20,106 bases of DNA, taken from positions 1 through 20,106 of the IMG/VR virus record IMGVR_UViG_3300010885_029431, one strand, 5' to 3'. The position numbers were made by a program, and so were the translations under genes. The first letter of the stretch is position 1; each line of letters begins with the position of its first letter. Below, in pieces: positions 1,976 through 19,132 of this stretch. The notes below the pieces were generated by a model. The model searched no databases. It worked only from the letters and a program-made list of their open reading frames with translations, and was not told the DNA's origin. This DNA is from a virus.

Positions 1976-2209
1976 ATGATTTTTGACATCGTGAAAACTA
2001 ATGAAGAGGGCGGCGCTTGGCTAGTCAAAGCCTCAACTACCGTTTGGGCTGATGACAGTCACGCAGCAGAAAAGGTTGAAACTGGAGTGTGGTCGTTTAG
2101 AACACTTACGGCAGCACGGCGGTTCATTACAAGTGTGGTGAAAACAGACAAGCGTGTTCGGATGACCAAAACCGATAACTCTAATACCAGTTATGTTTAT
2201 CGGGGCTGA
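1976..2209 (+). CDS. Hypothetical protein, 77 residues
   Basis: The ATG at 1976 follows GAGAGGG about 5 bp upstream, 16 bp after the previous stop. The product (MIFDIVKTNEEGGAWLVKAS...) looks like an alpha/beta fold with a basic C-terminal tail (KTDKRVRMTKTD). It resembles in style the 66-residue protein at 19770-19970 (a KAYVIRTNEGFYLQVTDKDYAL region with 'TA.. F' helices), but I cannot claim homology. It is the last gene of the P1 operon and its 3' end overlaps convergent whiB by 13 bp. Confidence 0.62.
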   Translation: MIFDIVKTNEEGGAWLVKASTTVWADDSHAAEKVETGVWSFRTLTAARRFITSVVKTDKRVRMTKTDNSNTSYVYRG

Positions 2210-2475
2210 GAGCGAAGCCGCCTATTCCGTTTGTAGGTGAACCGTTGGCGCTCAGTCATCCCGCCCCAAACCCCCCAATGCTGATGATTGTCAATCGCAT
2301 ACTTAAGACAGTCATCTCTGACAGGGCAGCGTGAACAAGTTTCTAACGCCTCAGATGGCCGAACCCCTGAAGGTGGATAAAACAAGTTTATATCCATCCC
2401 AGCGCACAATGATTCAAGTATCCATTTGCCAGGCGGCGGCGGGGGAACAGGCAAATCATCATCGGCTTTACTCAC
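2197..2475 (-). CDS. whiB: WhiB-family iron-sulfur transcription factor
   Basis: The 92-residue product has the four-cysteine signature (Cys24, Cys47, Cys50 and Cys56; spacing C...C-x2-C-x5-C) and the G-V-W-G-G turn at 68-72, followed by a basic tail (RNRRLRSQPR). These features define WhiB proteins, which bind a [4Fe-4S] cluster, contact region 4 of the housekeeping sigma factor and act at promoters; they are restricted to actinobacteria and their phages. An unusual N-terminal proline run (VPPPPPG) precedes the domain. The GTG start at 2475 has no Shine-Dalgarno, but TAGCGT ends 6 bp upstream (2482-2487), the same leaderless geometry as elsewhere in the window. It stands alone, convergent to the P1 operon and divergent from the ParB block, so it may regulate phage promoters or manipulate host WhiB circuits. 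Confidence 0.93.
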   Translation of the reverse strand: MSKADDDLPVPPPPPGKWILESLCAGMDINLFYPPSGVRPSEALETCSRCPVRDDCLKYAIDNHQHWGVWGGMTERQRFTYKRNRRLRSQPR

Positions 2476-2562: not shown

Positions 2563-3030
2563 ATGGTTGAAGATGTAGAGGTGAATAGATTATCTAGACA
2601 TCCCTTAAACCCTAGAGAGGGCGATATTGGTGCTATCGCCACCAGTATTCAACAGAACGGATGGTTCGGAACTGTCGTTGCTCAACGCTCTACAGGTCAG
2701 GTCATCGCAGGTAACCATCGTTTAGAAGCAGCGAAGATACTGGGGTTTAAGAGTGTTCCTGTCTATTGGGTGGACTGCGACGATGAGCAGGCGCTCAGAA
2801 TGTTGTTGGCAGATAACCGCACTTCGGATTTAGCCAGTTATGACATTGAGCAACTGTCGGAAATCCTTGTAGGGCTTATTGAGACTGACGGACTGTTGGG
2901 AACGGGTTATGACGGCGATGACTTAGACAGTCTGCTGAAAGAGGCTAAAAGATTACCGCCCGACTTCCCCGACTTATTTACTCCCTTCACACATCATTGC
3001 CCTCGTTGCTACTACTCTTGGGAAACATAA
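2563..3030 (+). CDS. ParB/sulfiredoxin-fold protein (IbrB-like), C-terminal zinc hook
   Basis: The 155-residue protein shows a ParB N-terminal domain: NPREGD (15-21), SIQQNGW (28-34), the diagnostic GNHR at 50-53, then a helix ending LADNRTSDLASYD (82-94). The C-terminus has CPRC at 146-149, typical of stand-alone phage ParB-like proteins that end in CPxCGYxW. The ParB fold binds or hydrolyses CTP in partition proteins; in phages it occurs next to DNA methylases and PAPS-reductase-like proteins, as in the enterobacterial IbrA/IbrB regulator pair. Here an IbrA-like gene follows at 3905, and the methylase at 5053 begins with the module usually fused behind such a ParB domain. First gene of the rightward block, with a strong RBS. 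The biochemical role is not known. Confidence 0.82.
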   Translation: MVEDVEVNRLSRHPLNPREGDIGAIATSIQQNGWFGTVVAQRSTGQVIAGNHRLEAAKILGFKSVPVYWVDCDDEQALRMLLADNRTSDLASYDIEQLSEILVGLIETDGLLGTGYDGDDLDSLLKEAKRLPPDFPDLFTPFTHHCPRCYYSWET

Positions 3031-3031
3031 G

Positions 3032-3235
3032 ATGACTAAGCCGAAAAAAGGATTAACAAAAGAATGTTCAAAGATTATCGCCGTCAGAGTGGCACAAGTT
3101 GATTACGACATTATCCAGTCTGTGGCGACGAATAGAGAAGTTTGCGCTTCCGATATTGTTCGGTGGGCAATCGCCGTTTGGCAGGACTCCGAGTGGGAAG
3201 CCATACAACGAGCCGTTAGTCGCCAGGTCATATAA
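3032..3235 (+). CDS. Ribbon-helix-helix-like small DNA-binding protein
   Basis: The ATG at 3032 is one base after the previous stop, so translation is probably coupled. The 67-residue product has a short beta strand (KIIAVRVAQVD) followed by two helices (YDIIQSVATNREVCASDIV and RWAIAVWQ), the arrangement of Arc/MetJ-type ribbon-helix-helix repressors. Such proteins dimerise and bind palindromic operators, often their own promoter. The 3' part of the gene overlaps the next open frame. Assignment is from predicted secondary structure pattern only. Confidence 0.6.
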   Translation: MTKPKKGLTKECSKIIAVRVAQVDYDIIQSVATNREVCASDIVRWAIAVWQDSEWEAIQRAVSRQVI

Positions 3236-3908
3236 CGACTTCTATTCGCAACCTGTCTATGAGTATGAGAACCAGGTTGTTCAGAGGGTATTGAAGCCAT
3301 TATTGGAATCGGCAGCGGTTCTTGACCTCGGGGCGGGGACAGGCCTGGTTTTACAACTGACCAATCCTGCCTTCTACTATGCCGCAGACTCTTCCGCTGA
3401 AATGCTACAAGCGATACTGGACAACCATTACGACAGTATGAGTCGGACTCAAAAAGAAAACATATTTACTATTAAAGCCGACTTACAAGACCCGTTTGAC
3501 CTTCGTTATCTCCAAGAGCAATGCCAGTACCTCGGGGACATAGATGCTATAACGGCATTGTGGGCTGCTCATCATTTCCACGGGCAAGAAACTTACAACG
3601 CTATGTTTCAGATTGTTTCTCCCTCGGGAATGGTATTCTTTCACGGCAATATGCCTAGACGGAAGTATCGTCGTTGCCCCCCTTGGCTGAAACACGATTA
3701 CGATAAAACCTTCAACCCGAGAACGATGAAGGCTAAGATGAAAGCGGCTGGTTTTACCGATATAACGGTTGTCGGGTTTAACGCTGTACCTGACTGGCTT
3801 ATCCGCTTTATCCCCAGTAAGTGGGCTGCTGAAATCATTTGGCTTACACGGCTCATCCCAGCAAGATATCATTACAACGCCGCTGTTATCGGAAGGAAAC
3901 CATCGTGA
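3156..3908 (+). CDS. Class I SAM-dependent methyltransferase
   Basis: The product contains the Rossmann motif I AVLDLGAGTGLVLQL, an acidic motif II position (AADSSAEM) and a later ITALWAAHHFH segment, typical of small-molecule or protein SAM methyltransferases; there is no DPPY/DPPW, so it is not an obvious DNA N-methylase. The start is uncertain. The conserved N-terminal part (SYNDFYSQPVYEYENQ) begins immediately around the stop of the upstream ribbon-helix-helix gene, but no ATG/GTG lies there; TTG codons at 3156 or 3099, both inside that gene, are the only candidates, and 3156 is used here. The ORF ends 4 bp into the next gene. It could modify a base intermediate, a cofactor or a host protein. 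Confidence 0.72.
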   Translation: MFGGQSPFGRTPSGKPYNEPLVARSYNDFYSQPVYEYENQVVQRVLKPLLESAAVLDLGAGTGLVLQLTNPAFYYAADSSAEMLQAILDNHYDSMSRTQKENIFTIKADLQDPFDLRYLQEQCQYLGDIDAITALWAAHHFHGQETYNAMFQIVSPSGMVFFHGNMPRRKYRRCPPWLKHDYDKTFNPRTMKAKMKAAGFTDITVVGFNAVPDWLIRFIPSKWAAEIIWLTRLIPARYHYNAAVIGRKPS

Positions 3909-5056
3909 GTGATTCAAGACGCAAAGACACAGGATTAGATGTCTTTAACGAGGCAATAGAGAGACTGGTTGCCGTATATGAGCAGGGGCATAGAATCATC
4001 GTTTCCTTTTCCGCTGGCAAAGACTCGGGGGTATGCTTAGAACTGGCAATCATCGCAGCAACGATTACAAACAGACTCCCCGTTGAAGTGGTTATGCGTG
4101 ATGAAGAGATTATGTTCCCAGGCTCTTACGAATACGCTGAACGGTGTGCCGCCAGGCCTGAAGTGGACTTCCATTGGATGGTGGCAAACCAACCAGTTAT
4201 TAACTGCTTTAATCGCAGACAACCGTACTTTTGGACTTTTGACCCCGACCTAGACCCTTCCGAGTGGGTTCGCCAACCGCCTGATATTGCCTATACCATC
4301 CCCGAGAAAAACATTGACTCTATGGTGAACCCTGACCGCTTCCCGCCAGCAGAAGGCAAAGAGTTAATGACCATCATTGGGCTTCGCATCTCTGAGTCAT
4401 TTAGCCGCAGGCGAGGCTTGTTCTCTTCAGGCGGCTACATTACAAAACCGCAAAAGTATGGGGTTCGCAGAGTCCGACCAATCTACGATTGGGAAGATGG
4501 GGATGTTTGGAAAGCCATTGTGGATAACCAATGGGATTACAACCACGCCTATGATGTCCTATACCGTCACGGTGTTAAGCCCGCCCAACTACGAATCGGG
4601 CCGCCTACGATGAACATATATGGGGCTTCTAACCTAGCAATCGCCAGGGTTGCCTGGCCGCAATGGTTTGACAAGGTAGAGAAGAGATGTCCAGGGGTAC
4701 GAACCGTTGCCCAGTTCGGGAAGAGGGCGGTCACTCCGAGGCGGATGCTTGGTGAATCGTGGGAAACGACCTTTTGGCGTGAGTGTGTAGATGAAGCACC
4801 TGACTGGATTGCCGAACGGTCACGCAAAGTGATTACCAGCGTCCTTGCTCAGCACTCTCGGCACGCTTCCACAGAGTTCCCCCAGGCAAACAAATGCTAC
4901 CAATGCCACGCCGTTCTCGGGTCTTGGAAAAAGGTTTGCGATGTTATGTATTTAGGAGACCCGTTCTCTGCTGTAACTGGCGGAAGCCTACCTTATGTTG
5001 AGCCTGAGTTCTTTAAGGCAGGGGCAGGCACTTGGGGAGGCGCACCGACTTGGTGA
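3905..5056 (+). CDS. PAPS-reductase / IbrA-like PP-loop ATPase
   Basis: The 383-residue protein has the PP-loop pyrophosphatase motif SFSAGKDSGVCLEL at 34-47, and a central segment (WTFDPDLDPSEWVRQPPDIA, then IGLRISESFSRR) like the IbrA branch of PAPS-reductase-related proteins. A C-terminal KCYQCHAVLGSWKKVC cluster could hold zinc or iron-sulfur. PP-loop enzymes adenylate a carbonyl or activate sulfur; relatives act in sulfate reduction, tRNA thiolation and, as DndC, in DNA phosphorothioation. IbrA proteins occur with ParB-like IbrB. The GTG at 3905 overlaps the previous stop (GTGA); the longer frame from 3839 lies in the methyltransferase gene. It ends GTGA-coupled to the DNA methylase gene. 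The substrate is not deducible from sequence. Confidence 0.85.
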   Translation: MSDSRRKDTGLDVFNEAIERLVAVYEQGHRIIVSFSAGKDSGVCLELAIIAATITNRLPVEVVMRDEEIMFPGSYEYAERCAARPEVDFHWMVANQPVINCFNRRQPYFWTFDPDLDPSEWVRQPPDIAYTIPEKNIDSMVNPDRFPPAEGKELMTIIGLRISESFSRRRGLFSSGGYITKPQKYGVRRVRPIYDWEDGDVWKAIVDNQWDYNHAYDVLYRHGVKPAQLRIGPPTMNIYGASNLAIARVAWPQWFDKVEKRCPGVRTVAQFGKRAVTPRRMLGESWETTFWRECVDEAPDWIAERSRKVITSVLAQHSRHASTEFPQANKCYQCHAVLGSWKKVCDVMYLGDPFSAVTGGSLPYVEPEFFKAGAGTWGGAPTW

Positions 5057-5784
5057 AAATACACAACATAGCCGAAGACGGTTCGTGGCGCTACTCAGGG
5101 AAACACAAAGACATCCCTGTTCAACCTGGCGACATTTGGCGGGTAGGCGAACATATATTCGTTTGCGGCGACATAGAAGGAGACCAAGCGAGCAGTCCCC
5201 TGAGTACGCTGTTGAAATCTCATCCGCCAACCCTTATCTACGCAGACCCGCCTTGGGGTTCGGGTTTGGCAAGGTCATATCGGACTAAGGCAGGCTCAGA
5301 TAACGGTTCAGGCAGAGCGGTGGACTTCCCTAACCTTATAAGGTCATTACTGTTGCCCGCTAAGACCTACAAAACTGTCGCCTATGTGGAGAATGGCGTT
5401 CGTGAAGAGCGAGTGCTGAAAGAGACTCTCATTGAGATGGGCGCTACGATAACGGGACATTGGAATACGACTTATTATAAGACGAAGCCAGCAATCCTTT
5501 ACGCTGCTGATTTCCGACCTGTGCCTCAGACAGACCACCCCGACTTCACAGGCGTTGATGACGAATACACTCCTTTAATGGCGTTAAGACATCATCCTGT
5601 CGGAACAGTCTTAGACCCTTGTGCTGGAAGAGGTCTAACCGCTAGAACCGCACAAACTTTAGGGTGGAAATCTATTAATCACGAGTTATCCCCATACCGT
5701 ATGGCGGAAGCACTTGATAGTATATTTAGGATGACCGACCAACCCATAGAGAGAGTTTTATATGAGCGAGACCCCATTAAATGA
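5053..5784 (+). CDS. DNA adenine N6-methyltransferase-like protein (DPPW type)
   Basis: The protein (243 residues) starts with PGDIWRVGEHIFVCGD (25-40), the linker found between ParB and methylase domains in ParB-methylase fusions. It then has motif IV ADPPW (64-68) followed later by motif I VLDPCAGRGLTA (186-197). Motif IV before motif I marks a beta-class amino-methyltransferase, and DPPW is typical of adenine-N6 enzymes. It is short, with little room for a target-recognition domain. The GTG at 5053 overlaps the upstream stop; GGGGAGG at 5034-5040 is the likely ribosome site. Likely role: methylating phage DNA against host restriction, or preparing adenines for further modification. It overlaps the next gene by 23 bp. 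Confidence 0.8.
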   Translation: MKIHNIAEDGSWRYSGKHKDIPVQPGDIWRVGEHIFVCGDIEGDQASSPLSTLLKSHPPTLIYADPPWGSGLARSYRTKAGSDNGSGRAVDFPNLIRSLLLPAKTYKTVAYVENGVREERVLKETLIEMGATITGHWNTTYYKTKPAILYAADFRPVPQTDHPDFTGVDDEYTPLMALRHHPVGTVLDPCAGRGLTARTAQTLGWKSINHELSPYRMAEALDSIFRMTDQPIERVLYERDPIK

Positions 5785-6115
5785 CCTGTTTGACCGCTTG
5801 ACCGCAGCGAGGTTTCGGAAGAGCAAATCTTACGACCCGCCACACGAATACATAATGACCAGTTACGATGATTCGTACACGGCGCTATGGCACGAAATCC
5901 GTGTTGCCCTAGTCAATCACGGCATTGTCAGACCGTTCTACAAATCTAGAGCGGTTTGGAAATACCTGGATAGCCCCGACGGGTACACCTATTGGATTAT
6001 GCCGCAATGGCTAGTCCCCGACTGGGAAAACAACTTTGACCCGTTTGACAACTACATCATTAACAGGCAGCGTACTGATGTCGCCAAGAACGGTTCCTGG
6101 ACTAAGAAAAGTTAG
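5762..6115 (+). CDS. Hypothetical protein in modification block
   Basis: The ATG at 5762 has GAGAGAG about 6 bp upstream and starts inside the methylase gene. The 117-residue product is rich in aromatic residues, with WKYLDSPDGYTYWIMPQW near the middle and PDWENNFDPFDNYI after it. I do not recognise the family. Its tight packing between the DNA methylase and the glycosyltransferase suggests a partner role in the same pathway, but nothing in the sequence shows a catalytic site. Confidence 0.68.
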   Translation: MSETPLNDLFDRLTAARFRKSKSYDPPHEYIMTSYDDSYTALWHEIRVALVNHGIVRPFYKSRAVWKYLDSPDGYTYWIMPQWLVPDWENNFDPFDNYIINRQRTDVAKNGSWTKKS

Positions 6116-6117
6116 AG

Positions 6118-6777
6118 ATGCCCCTTCGCTGGATTGTGCGAGCAGTCCCCGAGCGAAAACCTGTCATTGAATATCTCCAATATCATATTCCTCAGTTAGA
6201 GGTCGTTTGGGACAAGCATCGTGACGGGATGGAAACATTCCTCAGAGCAATGGACACGGCAGGCGATGACCCAGCAGTCCATTTAGAGGATGACTGTATT
6301 CTGACCAAGCGTTTCACACAGTTGATGCTGAACGAGATACACAAAAAGCCAAACGACATTATTCAAGCGTTCTCCAGGTCTAAATATGACATAACGGATG
6401 GTTCAAGGTATAGAGGCGGCGGTCATTTCTCTTGTACGGTCTGCTTCTACACTCCTCGGGGCTTGTCTGCTGAAATAGCGTCGTTCTATGACTCCCCCGA
6501 CTGGGCCGAGACTAGAAACATTCATCCCACAGGATGGGATTATATGATGGCAGCCCTGTTCGCCAAAAAGCGGTTAAACTACTGGATAAGAGTCCCAAGC
6601 CTCGTTGACCACATTATACAGCCATCTCAGATTGGTGGGCGTTCAGCAAGGCGACTCTCAACAACATTTAAGAGCCCCGACTACAGGAACTACCCCCATA
6701 CCCCACAAGAGCAGTTAAGTGATAGTAGATTACCATTACACGGCGTAAAACCAACAAGGAGAAAAAGTGAGCAATAA
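6118..6777 (+). CDS. Glycosyltransferase-like protein (GT-A type, EDD motif)
   Basis: The 219-residue product carries HLEDDC at 55-60, a DXD-like metal/nucleotide-sugar motif, and later VPSLVDHIIQPSQIGGRS, closely like the P-S-L-V-x-H...S-x-x-G ending of GT25-like and related phage glycosyltransferases. Between them GWDYMM is a plausible acceptor-site segment. Phage enzymes of this kind glycosylate modified bases, capsid proteins or surface polymers. Placement beside a DNA methylase and a PP-loop enzyme favours base glycosylation, but that is inference. The ATG is 2 bp after the previous stop, with only a weak ribosome site. The 3' end overlaps the next gene by 11 bp. Confidence 0.72.
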   Translation: MPLRWIVRAVPERKPVIEYLQYHIPQLEVVWDKHRDGMETFLRAMDTAGDDPAVHLEDDCILTKRFTQLMLNEIHKKPNDIIQAFSRSKYDITDGSRYRGGGHFSCTVCFYTPRGLSAEIASFYDSPDWAETRNIHPTGWDYMMAALFAKKRLNYWIRVPSLVDHIIQPSQIGGRSARRLSTTFKSPDYRNYPHTPQEQLSDSRLPLHGVKPTRRKSEQ

Positions 6778-7579
6778 GGGCAAAGCAATCATTGACAAAA
6801 AGAACAAAGCGTTAGAGCGGCTAGAAATAGTTTATGCCTCCCTGACTGACATCGCCCCAAACAGTTACAACCCAAACCGCCAGTCCGATGCTGACTTTGA
6901 GTTGCTACTCCGTTCCATCAGAGAAGACGGCTTCACGCAACCTATCGTGGCGGTTCGCACCGAAGACCCTGAACTCGCCAAAAAGCATCCTTACACCATC
7001 GTTGACGGCGAACACCGTTGGCGAGCAGCCTCACAGTTAGGGATGAAAGAAGTCCCCTTGGCTCTTGTCCCAATGACTCTCGCCCAGGCACGAATCGCCA
7101 CCCTTCGCCACAACAGGGCAAGAGGGTCAGAAGACATTGAACTCGCCACCGAAGTCCTCAGAGACTTAGAACGCCTTGGCGCACTTGACTGGGCTCAAGA
7201 CTCCCTTCAACTCTCAGACGACGAACTCAACCGCCTACTGGAAGACATCCCCGCCCCCGAAGCCCTCGCAGCAGCAGTATTCACAGACGCTTGGGAACCA
7301 CAGAAAGCCACCTTCCAATCAGACGGCGTTATCGCAGCAGTTACAGGCGGCACTCAACAAGACGCACTTACCCCAGGGGCAATAGAGGCCTCAAGAGAGC
7401 AAGAACGCCGAATCGTAGCAGCACGAAGCGACGAAGAGAAAGAGCAGATTTCCAAAGAGCGCCTCATATACAGACTGAACCTCACCTTCACAAACGACGA
7501 AGCCAAAATCGTTAAAGAAGCATTAGGCAGCCAACCAGCAGTCAAACTCCTAGAACTATGCGACAACGCCTTAAAGTAG
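6767..7579 (+). CDS. ParB-like nuclease-domain protein, 270 residues
   Basis: The N-terminal half is a ParB domain: NPNRQSDADF (35-44), SIREDGFTQPIVAV (50-63), the core IVDGEHRWRAA at 78-88 and VPLALVPM. A helical region (RIATLRHNRARGSEDIELATEVL) and an alanine/glutamate-rich C-terminal part follow. It is unlike the ParB protein at 2563 in its core motif (GEHR instead of GNHR) and in lacking the terminal zinc hook, so the two are distant paralogues rather than a recent duplicate. The GTG start is supported by AAGGAG 5 bp upstream. Actinophages often place such a gene just before the terminase; its exact role is unknown. Confidence 0.82.
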   Translation: MSNKGKAIIDKKNKALERLEIVYASLTDIAPNSYNPNRQSDADFELLLRSIREDGFTQPIVAVRTEDPELAKKHPYTIVDGEHRWRAASQLGMKEVPLALVPMTLAQARIATLRHNRARGSEDIELATEVLRDLERLGALDWAQDSLQLSDDELNRLLEDIPAPEALAAAVFTDAWEPQKATFQSDGVIAAVTGGTQQDALTPGAIEASREQERRIVAARSDEEKEQISKERLIYRLNLTFTNDEAKIVKEALGSQPAVKLLELCDNALK

Positions 7580-7611: not shown

Positions 7612-8025
7612 TTGGCAACGCCGAAACAAGTAGATATTGCGAACCGTAGGGCTCAGGCTTTAGAGTTGCGGGCGATGGGGCTCACTTATGAGCAGATTGC
7701 CGAGCGCCTGAAGTACAGTTCTCGCCAGTCTGCTCACAGGGACATCCACACGGCTTTGGATAATCTTGTTTCTGCCCCTGCTAAGGAGTTGCTCGCTGAA
7801 GAGTTGTCAAGGCTAGAGCGCCTGCTTCAAGGCGTTTGGGCGGATGCCCGAAAGGGTGACCCTCACAAGGTCAATACGGTTCTGAGGATTTTGGATATGC
7901 GGGCAAGATACCTTGGGCTCTATTCCCCTGAGCGTATCCAGGCAGAGGTTCGCATTGATGACCCTATTCGGGTGGCACAGAGCATTATAGAGATTGCCGA
8001 AAGTCTCCGTTCTAAGAAGAACTGA
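7612..8025 (+). CDS. terS: Terminase small subunit
   Basis: The 137-residue product has an N-terminal helix-turn-helix (RAQALELRAMGLTYEQIAERL, followed by SSRQSAHRDI) and a helical oligomerisation region (LSRLERLLQGVWADARKGD...VLRILDMRARYLGLY). This matches small terminase subunits, which bind the packaging site and recruit the large subunit. A TTG start at 7612 is well supported by AGAAGGG with 7-bp spacing. Its stop overlaps the ATG of the large subunit (TGATG). The position directly before the large subunit makes the call firm. Confidence 0.85.
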   Translation: MATPKQVDIANRRAQALELRAMGLTYEQIAERLKYSSRQSAHRDIHTALDNLVSAPAKELLAEELSRLERLLQGVWADARKGDPHKVNTVLRILDMRARYLGLYSPERIQAEVRIDDPIRVAQSIIEIAESLRSKKN

Positions 8026-9320
8026 TGGCAGCCCTGACAAGAGCGGATGCCGAGAAGCGCCTCGCTGAACTGCCTGTTGAGATACAGGGGCGTGTCAGAT
8101 GGCGGCTTCAGGCGAGACCTGAGCAACTCGCACCCGAAGGGGACTGGTTCCTTTGGCTGCTTGTCGCAGGGCGTGGCTTCGGCAAAACTAGAACGGCAGC
8201 CGAGTGGCTTGCTGAGCAGATGGTTACAAGACCGATGACCCGTTGGGCAATCATCTCCCCTACTTACGGCGACGGAAGAGATGTCTGCCTTGAAGGGGAG
8301 TCAGGTCTCTTAGCAGTCTTAGACCAAGGCGTAAGGTCATACAACCGTACTTCAACCGAGGTCGTTATGAACAACGGTTCAAGAGCCCGTGTTTACCCCG
8401 CCATTACCCCTGACCGTCTCAGAGGGCCGCAGTTTCACGGCGCTTGGCTTGACGAACCCGCATCGTTCAGATATGGGATGACCGTTTGGGAAACCCTACA
8501 ACCAGCGTTGCGCCTGGGAACCGCCCCAAAGATTATTATTACGGGAACCCCAGCACCCGTTCCGCTGATGAAATATCTTGTATCACAGGTTGACGGGCAG
8601 AGTGTCCACCTGACAAGAGGCAGGACTTACGACAACGCCGCAAACCTTCCCGCCTTGCTGCTTGACCAGTTGCGAAGGCGATATGAGGGGACTCGCATCG
8701 GCAGACAAGAGTTAGATGGTGAACTGCTTGACGATGTTGAAGGCGCACTTTGGAACTATGACCTGGCGACCCGCAACCGTTCAGACATCCCCGACGAAAT
8801 GGACAGGATAGTTGTAGCCATTGACCCTGCTTCAACCGCTAAAGAGTCATCCAACGAGACAGGCATCATCGTGGCAGGCAGGAAAGGCGACAAGGCTTAT
8901 GTCCTAGAAGACTGTTCGCTGAAGGCATCCCCTCTTGACTGGGCAGGCAAAGCGGTTGCCGCCTACCACCGTTGGGAAGCAGATGCCATCGTCGTTGAGA
9001 CCAACCAGGGTGGAGATATGATTAAAACCACAATCCACACGGTTGACTCCAGGATTAGAGTTCGTGAGGTACACGCCACCCGAGGCAAAACCCTAAGAGC
9101 GGAACCTGTTGTCGCTTTGTATGAGCAGAACCGTATCTGTCACGCAGGCATATTCAAAGAACTAGAAGACCAAATGTGTTCCTGGGTTCCTGAGCGTGAC
9201 TCCCCCGACAGGCTTGACGCTCTCGTTTGGGCTTTAACAGACCTGATGTTAGACGGCCCTCGCAGAGCAATGGCGGTTGTCCCCGCTTCAATAGAGAAGG
9301 TATCCCATTGGAATATATAA
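8025..9320 (+). CDS. terL: Terminase large subunit
   Basis: ATPase motifs: Walker A AGRGFGKT at 48-55, Walker B with catalytic glutamate in GAWLDEP (LDE at 142-144) and coupling motif TGTPAP at 173-178. Nuclease-domain acidic residues: Asp267 (VVAIDPA), Glu325 (VVETNQGG) and Asp398 (DRLDALVWAL), the RNase H-like triad. At 431 residues it is of usual length for the family (Terminase_6 type). The enzyme is the packaging motor: it translocates genomic DNA into the prohead with ATP and cuts it. Translation is coupled to the small subunit. Confidence 0.96.
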   Translation: MAALTRADAEKRLAELPVEIQGRVRWRLQARPEQLAPEGDWFLWLLVAGRGFGKTRTAAEWLAEQMVTRPMTRWAIISPTYGDGRDVCLEGESGLLAVLDQGVRSYNRTSTEVVMNNGSRARVYPAITPDRLRGPQFHGAWLDEPASFRYGMTVWETLQPALRLGTAPKIIITGTPAPVPLMKYLVSQVDGQSVHLTRGRTYDNAANLPALLLDQLRRRYEGTRIGRQELDGELLDDVEGALWNYDLATRNRSDIPDEMDRIVVAIDPASTAKESSNETGIIVAGRKGDKAYVLEDCSLKASPLDWAGKAVAAYHRWEADAIVVETNQGGDMIKTTIHTVDSRIRVREVHATRGKTLRAEPVVALYEQNRICHAGIFKELEDQMCSWVPERDSPDRLDALVWALTDLMLDGPRRAMAVVPASIEKVSHWNI

Positions 9321-10096
9321 TCCATCACGCTTCCCCTGGAGACCGTTTGCTTACTCAGAATAGCGAGATGAGAAAGAATGGGATTTACAACTGGACAATC
9401 CCCGCCTTTAAAGTGACCCTCTCTGATGGCAGCAAGTTTAACGCCTGTCCCAACGCAGGCGCTTGCGCCCGAGTCTGCTACGCCCGTTTCGGCACTTACC
9501 GCTTTGGCAATGTGATGAAACGCCATTTACACAACCTGGAGTACCTGTTACAACATCCCGACGATTGGGAAGAGCAGATGAGCCGAGAAATAGGACAACG
9601 ACGCTTCGCCCCTTCGGGTATTCCCCACCACCTGCCGTATGACCCTTCCGACTCGTTCGTAGCAACCTGGATGCTCACAGGGGGCAAGGCGGTCAGAATA
9701 CACGATGCTGGTGACTTCTTTGAAGTGGGTTATCTGTTTCGGTGGGTTCATATCGCTGAGCAACATCCTCAAGTCCTCTTCTACGCTTACACTAAAGAGA
9801 ACTCAATGATAATGCCGCTGCTGAGTGCGATGCCACCAAACTTCAAAATCATATTCTCTTACGGCGGGCAGGAAGACGGGCTCATTGTCAGAGACATCCA
9901 CAGGCACGCCGATGTCTTCGCATCCGCTGAAGCGTTAGAGGCAGCAGGGTACTTTGACCAAGAGGACAATGACATCCTTGCGGCGATAGCACCTACAACA
10001 CGGATTGGGATAGTTCAGAACAACCTTCCAGTAGCAAAGAAACGGTTTAACGGCAGGCCGATGTCCGAACTCATTAACCGTGTTACTGAGGCTTAA
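9308..10096 (+). CDS. GP88-family protein of unknown function
   Basis: The 262-residue product has CPNAGACARVCYARFG (Cys47, Cys53, Cys57), then RIHDAGDFFEVGYLFRWVHIA and FYAYTKEN. These are the hallmark blocks of the 'gene product 88' family (Pfam GP88), first named in mycobacteriophages. Its biochemical activity is not established; the three cysteines could bind a metal or cluster, but the spacing (C-x5-C-x3-C) is not the radical-SAM C-x3-C-x2-C. The TTG start at 9308 has AGAAGG with 7-bp spacing and overlaps the terminase stop by 13 bp, so it is expressed with terminase. Longer in-frame starts lie in the terminase gene. Confidence 0.82.
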   Translation: MEYIIHHASPGDRLLTQNSEMRKNGIYNWTIPAFKVTLSDGSKFNACPNAGACARVCYARFGTYRFGNVMKRHLHNLEYLLQHPDDWEEQMSREIGQRRFAPSGIPHHLPYDPSDSFVATWMLTGGKAVRIHDAGDFFEVGYLFRWVHIAEQHPQVLFYAYTKENSMIMPLLSAMPPNFKIIFSYGGQEDGLIVRDIHRHADVFASAEALEAAGYFDQEDNDILAAIAPTTRIGIVQNNLPVAKKRFNGRPMSELINRVTEA

Positions 10097-13899: not shown

Positions 13900-16605
13900 G
13901 TGCGTTCCCCAATCGGCATTATCCAACGCACAGGGTGGACACGCCTACCCCTGAGCAAGTCTAGCGTTCGCCCTGGGGGACAACAGGCATACAAACCTAT
14001 TGGCAGCAGCCTCTCCTCTTCCGAGAAACGGTTATCTGACCTGATTCAAGAGGCATACAACAGTATTCCAACCGCAGTCTATTCCGCTGATCTTACTGAG
14101 TCTGCCATTGCGGCACAAAACAAACTGGCGTTATCCACCCTGACCTCATACAGCGAACGGTTCCAAGAGGTACTCCAAGCCCAATATGAGGCTTCCGCAG
14201 AGTTAGGAGTTAAAGAACTAAGAGCCATCCTGAGCCGCAGTTGGGCAAAGTTAAGTAAAGCGAGCGATGCCTTACCTTCTAAAGCGATTCAGTCCTGGGG
14301 CTTCAACGGCAAAGGAGTAGCGGCTGCTGACTGGGCAAAAACCGAAGCAGGCAAACTGATTACCAATATGACGGTCACCCAACAGGAAACATTCCGCCAG
14401 GTCATAAACACTTCGCAGACACTCGGGAGAACCCCCGCAACCTCAGCAAGAGTGCTTGTAGAAACACTCAACTCTGTCGCCCCTTCAACCCCAACAGCCA
14501 TAAGCCTTTCAACGCTACTGGGCGTAAATGCCAACGGGTTGACAGTCCGATATGAGCAGGCGGTTGTCAACAGAGCAACCAGCGTTGCCCAGTCGTTGGC
14601 TGATAAAGGCATAACTGGACAGAAGGCAGTAGATAAGGTCAGAGCAGACACACAAAAGTACGCTGACCAGTTGCGGCGCTCTCGGAGTGTAACCATCGCC
14701 AGGACTGAAACGATGATGGCAAACAACGAAGGGAGACTCGCCACCTTCCAACAGGCAGTCAACGACGGGATGCTTTCAAAAGAACACTCACGGAAGATTT
14801 GGTCAACCAGCCCGATGGATGTCTGCCCTATCTGTGTTCCGCTGAACGGTCAGATGGTCAAGATAGACGAAGAGTTTTCTAATGGTCGCTTAACGCCGCC
14901 TGCTCATCCTCGCTGCCGCTGCTCATTTGACATTGAACCCAATGTGAAACTGTACGAACCGCCAACAGCCGTTGGGTCAGGTACGCCTTCCGACCCGTAC
15001 CGTTTCCAACAGGCAGATAACCTGTTCACTCCCCAGGGCAGCGCCTTATCTCAACAGGGTTTCGGTGCTGATATGAGCGCCCCTACGGCCCCACCTGTGT
15101 TGCCCGAGGCGCTCACAGCGAATCCTAGAACGGGTACTTTTGATAAACCGATTGATTTCAGTCGGGAAACGGCTCAAACGAGTAACGGGCGACTGAGGAT
15201 GAAAGAAGCATTTGAAGAGTTTAAGCCCACCGAAACGCATACAAGAGTTATCCAAGACTTAGATTCCCCTGCTGGCAGGGACATCCCGACCCTCATTAGC
15301 CGAACACAACTGGATGAGGTTGCCGAGGATAAAGCCCGCAAGATACTTGAAGAGGTTGACGACCTCATTGCCAACTCCGAATCGGTCATCCCTGACCAAG
15401 GCTTCCAGGCAGTTATAAGGGGGGCGTTTGACATCACAGATGAGGCAGCCCGAGACCTTATAACCTCAGACGGTGGAGACATCTTTTACAACCCTCAACA
15501 TCTCAGAGTTAATACTTATGGCTTAGAAAGAAAAGGTATTGGTTGGCGTGTTGAAGCATCCTTTGTGGAAGGAACACGCTTTGTCCCAATAAATACTACT
15601 TCGGGCGAGATACTGATGCCCAGGGGAATGAGTTATGTTGTGACATCGGTGGATGAGGCGACACGAATCATTACCGTCAGTTATAACACCCCGCCGCCGT
15701 TCGTCTCACCAACGCCACTCCCTACGAATACGATGGTTCACAGGCTAAGAGACGGGCTCAAGGCTAATGGTTATGCGGCCTGGCAAGACCCCATAATACA
15801 AACACTCAGAGAGGGCGAAGTGATTGTATATGAGGGAATCATTCCTGGATTCGGCTCATTAAATACGATACAGGGTTCCATCATCACTCGCCAGCAAGGC
15901 GTTATCATCATTGAGGAAGTGTTTGAACAGTCAAGGCTTTCCGAGGTTGTAAGACAAGGTAAACTGCTTTCTCAAAACAAAGTGATTGACTTTAATGCGG
16001 ATTGGGCTCAACAGGGAAATATCGGTCAGACCATTAGACAAACTGTGGAGACGCTTAAACAGGTTGCGTCTGTTATTCCCGAATCCAGTCCAACATTCAC
16101 AAGGCAAATAGTATTAAGTCTAAAAGCAAACCCACAAGATGCTAACTGGGCTAAAAAATATAATATGCCTGGGTTTACCTCGGGGGCGACAGGTGGCAGA
16201 TATGCCATATTCTCTTATGGTGGCAGACCAGTTGGAGTTGGAACTTTTGGTCACGAGTTTGGTCACGGGTTAGACCACTCAACCATCTTTGGGTCGTTTC
16301 GGGTTTCCGAGTCGCCCGCCTGGACTGAGGCAGCCAAATCCGATTCTAGGACCACATTTAAGATGGTTCCGCCCTGGGAATACGCAACGGGGAATAAGAG
16401 AGCAATCTTCGGCAGCCGTTTCATAAGTAAATATGCTTTCTCATCGCACTCCGATATAGAAGACTTCGCAGAGTCAGTAGCCTTATACCTTCAAGACCGC
16501 AACTCTGGTTATCTAGTTAGTCACCCCGACACAGGGGTGGTTAAAACCTTTGCCGACTTATTCCCCGAGAGGGCAAAGATACTAAGAGGCATCTTCGGGG
16601 TCTAG
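13900..16605 (+). CDS. MuF head-morphogenesis protein fused to C-terminal zinc metallopeptidase
   Basis: Residues about 265-341 form the MuF domain: IARTETMMANNEG, then SPMDVCPICVPLNGQ (cysteines near 309) and PPAHPRCRC (336-341). MuF proteins bind the portal inside the capsid and can be ejected with DNA. From about 345 the protein has a low-complexity linker, a region around 560-580 (SGEILMPRGMSYVV) that faintly resembles the last strands of ADP-ribosyltransferase exoenzymes, and a C-terminal domain with HEFGHGLDH at 785-793 and a downstream DIEDFAESV (about 852-860). That is the HExxH plus glutamate pattern of zinc peptidases, like the anthrax-lethal-factor-type (ATLF) family. Known MuF proteins with variable C-terminal toxin domains make this a candidate injected effector. 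GTG start, one base after portal. Confidence 0.85.
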   Translation: MRSPIGIIQRTGWTRLPLSKSSVRPGGQQAYKPIGSSLSSSEKRLSDLIQEAYNSIPTAVYSADLTESAIAAQNKLALSTLTSYSERFQEVLQAQYEASAELGVKELRAILSRSWAKLSKASDALPSKAIQSWGFNGKGVAAADWAKTEAGKLITNMTVTQQETFRQVINTSQTLGRTPATSARVLVETLNSVAPSTPTAISLSTLLGVNANGLTVRYEQAVVNRATSVAQSLADKGITGQKAVDKVRADTQKYADQLRRSRSVTIARTETMMANNEGRLATFQQAVNDGMLSKEHSRKIWSTSPMDVCPICVPLNGQMVKIDEEFSNGRLTPPAHPRCRCSFDIEPNVKLYEPPTAVGSGTPSDPYRFQQADNLFTPQGSALSQQGFGADMSAPTAPPVLPEALTANPRTGTFDKPIDFSRETAQTSNGRLRMKEAFEEFKPTETHTRVIQDLDSPAGRDIPTLISRTQLDEVAEDKARKILEEVDDLIANSESVIPDQGFQAVIRGAFDITDEAARDLITSDGGDIFYNPQHLRVNTYGLERKGIGWRVEASFVEGTRFVPINTTSGEILMPRGMSYVVTSVDEATRIITVSYNTPPPFVSPTPLPTNTMVHRLRDGLKANGYAAWQDPIIQTLREGEVIVYEGIIPGFGSLNTIQGSIITRQQGVIIIEEVFEQSRLSEVVRQGKLLSQNKVIDFNADWAQQGNIGQTIRQTVETLKQVASVIPESSPTFTRQIVLSLKANPQDANWAKKYNMPGFTSGATGGRYAIFSYGGRPVGVGTFGHEFGHGLDHSTIFGSFRVSESPAWTEAAKSDSRTTFKMVPPWEYATGNKRAIFGSRFISKYAFSSHSDIEDFAESVALYLQDRNSGYLVSHPDTGVVKTFADLFPERAKILRGIFGV
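15106..15132 (+). repeat. Dispersed imperfect repeat, copy 2 (inside MuF gene)
   Basis: This 27-bp segment matches 25 of 27 positions of the copy at 17270-17296. Here it is coding (EALTANPRT, residues 403-411) and lies in the linker between the conserved MuF domain and the variable C-terminal part of the protein. Confidence 0.7.
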
Positions 16606-16767: not shown

Positions 16768-16803
16768 ACAAGCAGACTACCACCCGCAGGTGAAAAACCA
16801 ACT

Positions 16804-16822
16804 GTTATAGTATTCTATAACA
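16804..16822 (+). promoter_or_regulatory. Perfect inverted repeat and -10 box before the 16823 gene
   Basis: GTTATAG (16804-16810) and CTATAAC (16815-16821) form a perfect inverted repeat around TATT, ending two bases before the ATG. TATTCT (16811-16816) is a -10-like hexamer ending 6 bp before the start codon. A repressor bound to this operator-like site would cover the -10 box. No -35 box is visible. Confidence 0.45.
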
Positions 16823-17251
16823 ATGCCTACCGCCCCAAAGATTACTGTGCCTTCATATATTGCTGCTAATGCCACAAGAGGCCTGTCTCATTTGAAACAC
16901 GCTGGCAACGGGTTGCGACCTAAGACTGTTCGTGAGGCGAGACTGATGGCAGCAGGGTCTATTAGTGCTGATAAGGCAATGAGGATGGCAGCCTGGTTCG
17001 CAAGGCACGAAAGCGACTTAAACATTAAGGAAGCCCGAGACTACCTTTCGGGTGCTTCGGAAAGCCCAACCGCTGGACAAGTCGCTTGGCTGCTTTGGGG
17101 TGGAGACCTGGGCGAGAACCGTTTGCGGGCAATGGAGTGGGCTGCCGCAACCCGAGACAGGCAAGACAAAGCAAACGACGATGTTGCCAAAGGACTATCC
17201 AGTTCGGTGACTGAGTTGCCGCAGAGAAGAGCCCATAACGGGTGGGGCTGA
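16823..17251 (+). CDS. Hypothetical phage protein with GQVAWLLWGGD motif
   Basis: The 142-residue product has VPSYIAANATRGLSHLKHAG, then REARLMAAGSISADKAMRMAAWFARHESD and GQVAWLLWGGDLGENRLRAMEWA. I associate this pattern (helical ARxMA.G.IS..K..RM..WFARH..D...GxVAWLLWGGD) with a recurrent module of actinophage head-region proteins, but I cannot name its function. No ribosome site precedes the ATG; TATTCT at 6 bp suggests a leaderless start. It follows the MuF gene and may be a structural or scaffold-related protein. A hairpin and a repeat copy follow its stop. Confidence 0.72.
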   Translation: MPTAPKITVPSYIAANATRGLSHLKHAGNGLRPKTVREARLMAAGSISADKAMRMAAWFARHESDLNIKEARDYLSGASESPTAGQVAWLLWGGDLGENRLRAMEWAAATRDRQDKANDDVAKGLSSSVTELPQRRAHNGWG

Positions 17252-17269
17252 CATACCTATTTTAGAATA

Positions 17270-17296
17270 GAGGCGCTCACAGAGCATCCTAGAACG
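17270..17296 (+). repeat. Dispersed imperfect repeat, copy 3
   Basis: This copy begins GAGGCGCTCACAGAGCATCC and lies 19 bp after the stop of the 16823 gene, in the convergent gap before the minus gene ending at 17355. It matches the in-gene copy at 15106 in 25 of 27 bases and the copy at 10138 in 23 of 27. A small CTATT-TTAG-AATAG hairpin (from about 17258) directly precedes it. Confidence 0.7.
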
Positions 17297-17320
17297 ACCT
17301 ATATTGCCCTTATAGCAACA

Positions 17321-17341
17321 TATCGGGGCTTTCGCCCGATA
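17321..17341. terminator. Hairpin in convergent gap, GAAA loop on minus strand
   Basis: TATCGGG (17321-17327) pairs with CCCGATA (17335-17341). Allowing one bulged G, the stem extends by a G-C pair and leaves a four-base loop that reads GAAA on the minus strand. It lies between two converging genes. No T-run follows on either strand, so it may be a processing or rho-independent-like barrier rather than a strong terminator. Confidence 0.45.
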
Positions 17342-17354
17342 ATGCCGAGACAGG

Positions 17355-17693
17355 TTAGACCGAATACCCTCTGAGGTTCGGGGCAGTCTCATCCACAAAG
17401 CGGAAACGCCTGACCACATTTCGCATCTTGCCATAACTCATTTCCAGGGTCTCCACTTGCCACAGGTGAAACTCCACTTCGGAGACTACAGGTTCCGCCT
17501 TGAGTACCGCTTCCCACTCTGCCGATAACGCCTTGACACACTTGAGCGCCATCCGTTCGCTGCCGTGTGAGTGGTGGCAACCACGAGTTGTCTCTCTTCC
17601 ACCTAGAAACACGGCGGCGTGGTGAATATCGTGTTTGACGATATCGCTGTAACCCACCTTGACCGCTTTTACTGAGTAGTCTGTCAAGTCCAT
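17355..17693 (-). CDS. Hypothetical protein, 112 residues
   Basis: The ATG at 17693 follows AAGGAG with 7-bp spacing and lies just after the upstream stop at 17695; a longer frame to 17735 lacks support. The product (MDLTDYSVKAVKVGYSDIVKHDIHHAAVFLGG...) has several histidines in two clusters (KHDIHHAA, GCHHSHGSE), perhaps a metal site, and a C-terminal strand-rich part. No family recognised. Last gene of the P3 operon. Confidence 0.65.
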   Translation of the reverse strand: MDLTDYSVKAVKVGYSDIVKHDIHHAAVFLGGRETTRGCHHSHGSERMALKCVKALSAEWEAVLKAEPVVSEVEFHLWQVETLEMSYGKMRNVVRRFRFVDETAPNLRGYSV

Positions 17694-18194: not shown

Positions 18195-18210
18195 AGGAAC
18201 TATCGTTCCT
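18195..18210 (-). terminator. Hairpin over the stop codon of the Mom-like gene
   Basis: AGGAAC (18195-18200) and GTTCCT (18205-18210) form a 6-bp perfect stem with a 4-base loop; the TAG stop of the upstream gene lies in the loop and stem. The minus strand then enters the AT-rich P3 upstream region. A weak intrinsic terminator separating the two minus operons is likely. Confidence 0.45.
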
Positions 18211-19132
18211 TCGGATATGGATAAACCTTATTCCTCTGCTCAAAGAGACTCTTCAGTTGCCGAGTCTCCGAACGGTTGCCACCAAGGACAAGAGCATACT
18301 TATGTTTAAGACTGACAGGGATACGAACAGATGAAGCCTGCTTATCCTTACTCATAAGCCGCAACGCTGACTCCACCTCACTCGGCACAAACTCCCACAA
18401 CATCTTTTGGTCGTTACTCCACTCACGCTTCCACACAATCCCCAACTCTTTAGCATATTGCTTATAAGCAGACCTCACTCTGAAAAAGCGGTCAGAAACG
18501 ACCTTGCCCGTATAAGGATTTATGTACCTGGCAGCAGCCCCCGAGTTCTGCCCCAAATAGTAGAAGTTACAAGCCTGATAAATGGTTCCTAACTCTTTCG
18601 CCGTTGTGTCAGAGTAGGCGGTGAACAATCTGTATTCGCTATTACGGCTCATCCAATGGCAGCACCACATTAGAAACGATGAAGCGAGGTTCTTGGGACT
18701 CCAGGATATACAAGCGCCACGACTTATAAGCCTTTCCAGTTTCGGAGTCTCTTCACCTAGAAGTTTAGAAAAACTGTTAGGCATATTCATAAGGATTACT
18801 CCAGCGAGATGACCCTTGTAATACGCCCCAAACCAATGGGTTGTAAACTGAGATAAAGTCCCAAGCCATTCGTGCCTCTTTATAAACGCTGCCGCCTCAC
18901 CCTTCCGACTCGGAGTTATAATGACCCGATACTCAAAGTCGCTTACTGTTAAGCGGGCTGTCTCCATAAGGGTGAGTCCGACATCAGAAAGGTCACGGGT
19001 AAGGTTTCTGAGCCTTATCTCATATTGCCAACAATGAGACCCTTCGTAAAGGGCGGTTTGAGCATACGGGTCTGCCGATAAAGACGGTTCCTCTACTTCA
19101 AACAGGGTTGGCTGTTTGCTGATGTCACTCAC
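18200..19132 (-). CDS. Mom-like adenine-modification protein (GNAT fold)
   Basis: The 310-residue product carries the block order of phage Mu Mom and Mom-like acetyltransferase-fold proteins: FIKRHEWLGTLSQFTTHWFGAYYKGHLAGVILMNMP (after residue 80), then LERLISRGACISWSPKNLASSF, and RLFTAYSDTTAKELGTIYQACNFYYLG. The D...G.iYqA.NF.Y.G ending is diagnostic. Mom converts adenine in DNA to a carbamoylmethyl-type N6 derivative that blocks many restriction enzymes. The first 60 residues (DISKQPTLFEVEEP) form an extra polar extension. The GTG at 19132 is 6 bp after the upstream stop; the ribosome site is weak, so coupling is likely. Last gene of the P4 operon. Confidence 0.83.
   Translation of the reverse strand: MSDISKQPTLFEVEEPSLSADPYAQTALYEGSHCWQYEIRLRNLTRDLSDVGLTLMETARLTVSDFEYRVIITPSRKGEAAAFIKRHEWLGTLSQFTTHWFGAYYKGHLAGVILMNMPNSFSKLLGEETPKLERLISRGACISWSPKNLASSFLMWCCHWMSRNSEYRLFTAYSDTTAKELGTIYQACNFYYLGQNSGAAARYINPYTGKVVSDRFFRVRSAYKQYAKELGIVWKREWSNDQKMLWEFVPSEVESALRLMSKDKQASSVRIPVSLKHKYALVLGGNRSETRQLKSLFEQRNKVYPYPKER

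Follow-up and report, generated by a model that had tools for sequence, protein, structure and literature searches.

The viral DNA analysed here, a stretch of 20,106 nucleotides hereafter called the window, contains at positions 2563-7579 eight close-packed genes upstream of terS and terL. We judge the chances about even that this block is one form of a modular cassette with which phages modify nucleic acid, most likely their own DNA. The core of the cassette is a PP-loop enzyme plus ParB, and its other enzymes are swappable; the window belongs to the subtype with a SAM methyltransferase (SAM-MT) gene next to the PP-loop gene. The arrangement of the block is far beyond chance, with its order kept in relatives and its association found in dozens of diverse phages.

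Organisation of the gene block

All eight genes lie on the plus strand and abut or overlap. The GTG start of the PP-loop gene at 3905 falls inside the SAM-MT stop, and further overlaps join the PP-loop and DPPW methyltransferase genes, the latter and p5762, and the glycosyltransferase (GT) and second ParB genes. The initial annotation had placed such a packed set just before the terminase, and downstream we indeed find a small-terminase candidate, terS (7612-8025, plus strand; phrog_645, 1.1e-31, a family labelled 'RNase E'), and the terminase large subunit, terL (8025-9320, plus strand; PF03237, 3.2e-23; PF17289, 5.4e-18). A phrog_645 gene is also located directly upstream of terL in phage Hendrix. 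At the left edge of the block is a divergent WhiB regulator gene. The order WhiB (minus strand), ParB1, p3032, SAM-MT, PP-loop, DPPW (where present), p5762, GT, ParB2, TerS, TerL is common to the window and its closest relatives, L002 and L003; in L012 the same order holds for the genes other than p3032.

The five genes named at the outset (ParB, PP-loop, two methyltransferases and GT) were recovered in place by domain and family matches and, for the GT, by a predicted model. ParB2, p5762 and the small protein at 3032-3235 had been left unnamed. The last of these, p3032 (plus strand, 67 residues), has no clear family (no match better than E 0.019 in a family search), but is kept in L002 and L003 at 47-49% identity and, judged by eye, looks like a ribbon-helix-helix regulator. 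A nucleotide search of the block against phage sequences gave no match, a promoter and terminator scan gave signals at chance level, and no tRNA genes were detected in the window.

The PP-loop and ParB core

The PP-loop gene (3905-5056, plus strand; PF01507, 1.6e-10; phrog_2302, 4.5e-56) encodes an IbrA-like ATP pyrophosphatase. Its P-loop motif is SAGKDS, and SxGKDS is invariant in all 16 aligned homologues. No cysteine is conserved across the same alignment, a CxxC being limited to the window clade and to L023. NCBIfam models gave only partial matches of the CysD/CysH type, with CysH scores far under the cut-off. Because SxGKDS is kept and a conserved cysteine is missing, the family is neither a PAPS reductase (CysH), for which that residue is catalytic, nor a DndC-like sulfurtransferase; the idea in the initial annotation that the enzyme might activate sulfur is thus unlikely. 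At E 0.1, no DUF3440 domain follows the PP-loop domain in the window protein; the Hendrix PP-loop protein has one (1.2e-7).

These observations bear on one alternative, a phosphorothioate-type sulfur modification of DNA by a DndC-like PP-loop enzyme helped by a host cysteine desulfurase. PADLOC matched the window PP-loop protein weakly to BrxP (2.2e-7) and DndC (9e-4), and Dnd systems do have a ParB-superfamily member, DndB (PMC10853773). However, an Fe-S cluster as well as a cysteine dyad is found in DndC (PMC10853773), whereas no cysteine is conserved in the 16 PP-loop homologues, the block proteins have no DndB/D/E-type match, and the GT, the GNAT acetyltransferase and the arginine decarboxylase found in cassettes would be left unexplained. 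We consider this alternative extremely unlikely. For the block proteins as a whole, PADLOC returned weak PP-loop and methyltransferase similarities and no defence system.

ParB1 (2563-3030, plus strand) is an IbrB-like ParB/Srx-domain protein (PF02195, ParB_N, 1.3e-6; phrog_723, 5.7e-38) with a GNHRLEAA motif of the nucleotide-binding type and a C-terminal CPRC; it is 71% identical to its counterparts in L002 and L003. ParB2 (6767-7579, plus strand; PF02195, 2.4e-13; phrog_2159, 9.9e-32), a second ParB/Srx protein, contains GEHRWRAA and shares 82% identity with its counterparts there. A ParB protein by itself is no proof that DNA is the target. Two families, phrog_498 and PDLC03229, each match both window ParBs and the DPPW protein, that is, ParB and a DPPW-type methyltransferase are fused in single families, and therefore the ParBs of the block are linked to DNA methylation.

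Tailoring enzymes of the window

The SAM-MT gene (plus strand) starts with TTG at 3099 or TTG at 3156 and ends at 3908. Its class I product has LDLGAGTGL as motif I and a Methyltransf_23 match (3.4e-6) of 27.3 bits, against a cut-off of 27. It adjoins the PP-loop gene constantly within the PP-loop clade of the window, and an alignment search found only the two near relatives.

The 117-residue orphan p5762 (5762-6115, plus strand) has the motif PHxY...G...yW.M...iNR, in which H28, G54, W78 and N101 are invariant, and is fused to SAM-MT in Hendrix, L021 and L024. Its predicted model (pLDDT 88) had no PDB match at a Foldseek E under 0.001 and a best VIA Z of 3.8; it did match one predicted viral protein (TM 0.78 by target). 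Two p5762 query sequences found no match among phage sequences.

The putative DPPW-type amino-methyltransferase (5032-5784, plus strand; phrog_498, 2.6e-5, a weak match; PDLC03229, 2.1e-6) has motif IV (DPPW at 72) preceding motif I (DPCAGRG at 195), and its PF01555 match is weak (0.022; 15.1 bits, under the cut-off of 26.7). The initial annotation had counted it as part of the set. The gene is present in L011, L012 and L112-L115 but missing from L002, L003 and most loci, so we rejected it as a core component and regard it as accessory.

The remaining enzyme (6118-6777, plus strand) is predicted to be a GT-A fold glycosyltransferase, an assignment made initially by eye and now confirmed by modelling. 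The predicted model (pLDDT 90) superimposes on GnT-I (1foa) with a VIA Z of 13.8 over 173 residues, and also matches mimivirus R655 (Z 13.7), COLGALT1 (Z 13.2) and the LH3 GT domain (Z 11.2). The acidic EDD motif (D58/D59), D141 and H165 are present, D58 and D59 being invariant in 18 sequences. The protein is linked to phrog_854 through its L003 and Hendrix relatives. While a single-sequence search of viral contigs retrieved no relative, an alignment search did; in bacterial genome contigs, a narrow search pattern found none.

Co-occurrence across phages

Three independent baits were used, the GT, the HxD protein (a dioxygenase-like partner seen in other phages) and the PP-loop protein; loci were made non-redundant at 90% PP-loop identity and filtered for sufficient flanks, and PP-loop genes were called by an all-ORF scan. 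With the GT as bait, viral loci contained PP-loop (15/15), ParB (14/15) and p5762 (13/15) genes. The HxD bait, with 21 loci, was accompanied by PP-loop in 19, ParB in 20, GT in 16 and p5762 in 13, most of these loci repeating the order ParB-(p5762)-GT-HxD-PP-ParB-terL. ParB was present in all 40 loci found with the PP-loop bait. As background, a set of 50,697 phage records has PP-loop genes in 197 and the window GT in just two, both belonging to phage Hendrix, an isolated and cultured Microbacterium phage that carries the cassette. The initial annotation had named a lack of co-occurrence in other phages among the observations that would refute its proposal; co-occurrence proved very strong with all three baits.

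GT, HxD and p5762 genes occur almost solely beside PP-loop genes, and the slot labels track the PP-loop tree, with 19 changes versus 64 when shuffled. This bears on a regulatory interpretation, in which IbrA and IbrB activate transcription, as for the E. coli eib genes, and the methyltransferases and GT are passengers. In E. coli, IbrAB is a pair that activates prophage genes. A glacial virus paper calls IbrA/B co-activators of prophage gene expression (PMC4490671), and the divergent WhiB regulator would suit such a role. Passengers, however, need not follow the PP-loop tree, be confined to its vicinity in conserved order or form p5762/SAM-MT fusions, and we find this interpretation decidedly unlikely.

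Exchangeable partners include GT, p5762, SAM-MT, the HxD...H dioxygenase-like protein, a cupin, GNAT, arginine decarboxylase, ectoine synthase, an epimerase and amidoligase/GGCT. An arginine decarboxylase (PvlArgDC, 1.8e-35) and, in six loci, an ectoine synthase (1.1e-42) lie beside the PP-loop gene; such amine-making neighbours are confined to other subtypes and absent from the window. Of 116 loci, nine have GNAT, 20 amidoligase (background 95 of 50,697 phages) and 18 GGCT, the latter two being paired on the opposite strand in several (L019, L022 and L043). Amine and amide enzymes beside the PP-loop gene favour the proposed modification; the opposite strand of the pair in these loci and the absence of amine makers from the window count against it. 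L043 also has a GalE-like epimerase (1.9e-44). In the HxD protein, H83, D85 and H129 are invariant in five sequences; its profile matched no solved structure, and only one relative matched PF05118 (Asp/Asn hydroxylase), weakly (0.0052).

The GT, GNAT, epimerase and hydroxylase-like proteins are also compatible with decoration of glycans or proteins. In that case, hydroxylation by the HxD protein and glycosylation by the GT would act on a protein of the phage (capsid or tail) or of the host; GNAT, epimerase and methyltransferase would tailor the sugar, and the site beside structural genes would reflect the substrate. The resemblance of the GT to COLGALT1, a collagen hydroxylysine galactosyltransferase, to LH3 and to R655 is in line with this, as are the PF05118 match and the epimerase. 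Against it, GT-A structure matches are generic, the universal PP-loop and ParB core is without a role in known glycosylation, and members of the ParB family occur as fusions with DNA methyltransferases. Genes recurring within 8 kb of cassettes are module genes and terminase or portal genes; none encodes a shared virion protein as obvious substrate, and no conserved structural protein travels with the cassette across phages. We hold decoration of proteins or virion glycans to be unlikely.

A further possibility is modification of tRNA or other RNA, by a TilS-like PP-loop enzyme and a GT resembling that of Q-glycosylation, in aid of phage translation. Pathways of tRNA modification include PP-loop and GT steps, and four tRNAs lie beside the Hendrix cassette. 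The window lacks tRNAs, however, no RNA-binding domain appears among the domain and family matches of the block, and the ParB core and its DNA methyltransferase fusions point to DNA; we regard this possibility as very unlikely.

Proposed function

For modification of the phage's own nucleic acid, we infer the following route. The PP-loop enzyme would bind ATP and adenylate its substrate, and the ParB/Srx-fold proteins may bind nucleotide and/or DNA beside it, together forming a 'writer'. As in lysidine-type chemistry, a small nucleophile (probably an amine) would then attack the activated position, which is probably the carbonyl of a base. Tailoring may follow, in the window by SAM-MT with its partner p5762 and by the GT, and in other phages by the HxD protein, cupin, acetyltransferase, amine-making decarboxylase, ectoine synthase, sugar epimerase or amidoligase/GGCT. 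The DPPW enzyme could optionally add ordinary N6-adenine or N4-cytosine methylation. The likely benefit would be that host nucleases are kept off the packaged DNA, in keeping with the location of the cassette next to the terminase. More tentatively, and with less confidence than in the cassette itself, we suggest that cysteine-free PP-loop enzymes of the PAPS-reductase family and their ParB/Srx partners may underlie a widespread, undescribed class of phage DNA hypermodification. They would couple a side chain carrying an amine to a base (lysidine- or agmatidine-like), and exchangeable enzymes (GT-A, p5762/SAM-MT, HxD dioxygenase, GNAT, ectoine synthase, amidoligase/GGCT) would then yield different final bases.

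Many tailed phages have PP-loop ('PAPS reductase') and ParB genes, for which sulfur metabolism or plasmid partition is the usual annotation. In this family that annotation is probably mistaken, and the two genes appear instead to form the unchanging centre of a modular system whose partners come from a defined set. If DNA is modified, the known hypermodified bases and anti-restriction strategies would gain a large new group, IbrAB a biochemical role, and the GT and p5762 families a function. As Hendrix is cultured, the cassette is open to direct testing.

Comparison with known systems

The initial annotation knew of no pathway with exactly this combination; our search of the searchable literature, with Iyer et al. 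2013 outside its scope, likewise gave no paper on it. Serratia phage eta, once reported to have hypermodified guanine, was rejected as an experimental link, its DNA being unmodified (PMC3918226).

In TET/JBP and hmC/hmU glycosylation systems, GTs decorate modified bases, but four module-bearing records lack a C5-methyltransferase (PF00145, CmoX type; controls matched; the window itself is a fragment) and a thymidylate-synthase-type gene. A search for TET/JBP dioxygenases gave no match, nor did its controls. Dnd/Ssp and the BREX type 4 protein BrxP share with the block a PP-loop/PAPS-reductase-fold enzyme, there acting on DNA, and in DndB a ParB-superfamily partner; they differ in the cysteines and DndB/D/E components discussed above. 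In the Dpd 7-deazaguanine system, the ParB-like ATPase DpdB serves the DNA-base-modifying DpdA (PMC12839542), a comparable pairing, although no transglycosylase is seen in the block, whose core is a PP-loop ATP pyrophosphatase. The carboxymethylcytosine hypermodification by CmoA/CmoX/CmoY includes an AMP-forming step and has frequent ParBc neighbours (PMC12783734); it shares multi-step phage DNA decoration and ParB neighbours with the proposed cassette, but the four module-bearing records have no counterpart of the C5-methyltransferase CmoX, and CmoY is asparagine-synthetase-like and outside the PAPS-reductase family.

IbrA/IbrB are named in other phages too (PMC4490671; PMC4541368). The E. 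coli IbrAB island (YbdN/YbdM in K-12) has, like the block, a PAPS-reductase-like PP-loop gene beside a ParB-domain gene; by comparison, the window PP-loop protein is without detectable DUF3440, and the block adds a GT-A glycosyltransferase, SAM-MT and p5762.

Gene content of the block and its close relatives

Between a divergent WhiB gene and the terminase genes, eight abutting or overlapping plus-strand genes (2563-7579) encode the ParB-like protein ParB1, p3032, a class I SAM methyltransferase (SAM-MT), an IbrA-like PP-loop ATP pyrophosphatase (PP), a putative DPPW-type amino-methyltransferase, p5762, a GT-A glycosyltransferase (GT) and a second ParB-like protein, ParB2; p3032 and p5762 belong to no clear family. 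The GTG start of the PP gene (3905) lies within the stop of the SAM-MT gene, which itself starts at TTG 3099 or TTG 3156. Intact signatures are present in PP (SAGKDS), GT (EDD, D141 and H165), SAM-MT (LDLGAGTGL) and the DPPW enzyme (DPPW, then DPCAGRG), and both ParB-like proteins contain G-x-H-R-x-x-A-A. The gene block described in the initial annotation is confirmed.

The WhiB regulator (2197-2475, minus strand; PF02467, 1e-19) is also kept in the related contigs L002, L003 and L012 and suggests an actinobacterial host. The 20,106-base record is probably a fragment. Downstream of the block, the protein at 7612-8025 belongs to PHROG 645, labelled 'RNase E'; as it occupies the terS position both here and in Microbacterium phage Hendrix (NC_047977.1, 1994-2530), this family is probably a mislabelled small terminase. 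A GP88-family protein (9227-10096; PF17338, 4.3e-40) directly follows terL and is kept in L002/L003. The MuF-domain protein (13900-16605) has a long C-terminal extension with a weak metallopeptidase match (PF15887, 0.0017), possibly an effector-like fusion. A Mom-like protein (18200-19132, minus strand; PF25680 8.9e-14, phrog_1384 3.1e-16) is a possible second DNA-modification gene; the relatives' records gave no Mom-like match, in a search in which the controls gave none either.

Gene order up to terL is common to the window, L002/L003 (PP identity 83%) and L011/L012 (75%). The DPPW gene is present in L012 and absent from L002/L003. The initial annotation had proposed that ParB, PP, SAM-MT, DPPW and GT could form a linked set for multi-step base hypermodification. 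This is partly supported: all five are present and the linkage holds by bait co-occurrence, but DPPW is a replaceable rather than a fixed member. The 48-kb L003 contig, read whole, carries genes for portal and tail proteins, WhiB and recombination-type functions; inspection by eye revealed none of the enzymes known to produce hydroxymethyl pyrimidines. C5-methyltransferase and thymidylate-synthase families had no match in L003 or in three further records that carry the module, Hendrix among them, in searches whose controls did match. L003 also encodes a second, distinct PAPS-reductase-like protein (16769-17485; phrog_424, 1.6e-26).

A conserved core with exchangeable partners

Viral contigs were searched with three independent baits: GT alone, PP alone, and HxD alone, a dioxygenase-like protein first met as a cassette neighbour. 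Among 15 non-redundant flanked loci found with GT (loci with PP over 90% identical removed), PP occurs in 15, ParB in 14 and p5762 in 13. The 21 HxD loci contain ParB (20), PP (19), GT (16) and p5762 (13), with the recurring order ParB-(p5762)-GT-HxD-PP-ParB-terL. With PP as bait, ParB is found in 40/40 loci, p5762 in only 14, SAM-MT in 8, a DPPW-like protein in 7 and GT in 4. Of 50,697 annotated phage records, 197 contain PP; these records are a different collection from the bait loci, so the frequency gives a scale and not a p-value; the same records gave only two matches to the window's GT, both from Hendrix. Co-occurrence is found with every bait. On this reading, PP and ParB make up a core on which GT, p5762 and HxD depend, and the remaining genes are exchangeable.

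In a fast tree built from 114 PP sequences, in which some branches are long, the protein in the slot next to PP (SAM-MT, HxD or cupin) tracks PP phylogeny (19 changes versus a shuffled mean of 64). The window falls in a 16-member clade in which SAM-MT is always present; in a further group of 27 loci, the slot contains a cupin protein (Cupin_2, 7.9e-7 in L142).

The right end of the Hendrix record contains two GT genes, a p5762/SAM-MT fusion, GNAT and PP; the left end contains three ParB genes, a TerS-like gene and TerL. Hendrix is a phage listed as lytic with a circularly permuted genome (PMC7302621). The two ends of the record are therefore joined, and here too the cassette leads into the terminase genes. 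As a cultured carrier, Hendrix makes the cassette testable without cloning an uncultured phage.

Fusions of p5762 to SAM-MT, also present in loci L021 and L024, indicate that p5762 probably serves the methyltransferase. No solved structure resembles the p5762 model (pLDDT 88) convincingly (best Z 3.8), which tentatively points to an uncharacterised fold. The GT model (pLDDT 90) has a GT-A fold, matching GnT-I with Z 13.8 over 173 residues.

Proposed chemistry and comparison with known systems

The PP-loop family has an invariant S-x-GKDS and other PAPS-reductase/CysD-like positions. No cysteine is conserved among 16 homologues, CxxC being limited to the window clade and L023. This pattern is evidence against both PAPS reduction and sulfur transfer of the DndC kind, and favours adenylation.

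Enzymes making or modifying amines or amides adjoin PP in subtypes other than the window's. These include a pyruvoyl arginine decarboxylase (L028, 1.8e-35), GNATs in nine loci and ectoine synthase in six (1.1e-42 in L181), with an ectoine-synthase-like cupin between PP and ParB in L181 (3893-4282), L179 (7314-7694) and L188 (4753-5241). L179 has a C5-methyltransferase (PF00145, 7.3e-60) near this cupin. Amidoligase occurs in 20/116 PP loci versus 95/50,697 phages generally, and together with GGCT in 16/116; the pair (PF12224, PF06094) lies beside the module in L019 (8569-10096, minus strand), L043 (4642-6371, minus strand) and L048 (2997-4715). Radical SAM proteins with a weak spore-photoproduct-lyase match lie inside or beside the module in L030 (5945-6784; Radical_SAM, 6.6e-14) and L028 (10129-10962). 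Genes for sugar chemistry comprise one to three GTs and, in a single locus, a GalE-like epimerase (L043, 1.9e-44).

From the probable adenylation by PP and these neighbourhoods, we infer that the cassette would activate a base, which would receive an amine-type group that is then tailored. The window fragment contains no amine genes, so for this phage the amine-type chemistry is extrapolated. The main rival explanation is that the cassette decorates protein instead of DNA. PHROG 498 and PADLOC PDLC03229 are each a single family that matches both window ParBs in its N-terminal part and, further along, the window's DPPW enzyme, linking ParBs of this type with a DNA methyltransferase. That the cassette carries out new chemistry is plausible but unproven.

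The block is a variant of the phage modification cassettes built around IbrAB. Part of the modification idea may have a precedent, since Iyer et al. in 2013 reportedly predicted lysidine-like DNA pyrimidines in phages. In mycobacteriophage Gaia, a ParB that carries the annotation ectoine-synthase/ParB multidomain protein comes after PP, an arrangement resembling the cassette loci with ectoine synthase.
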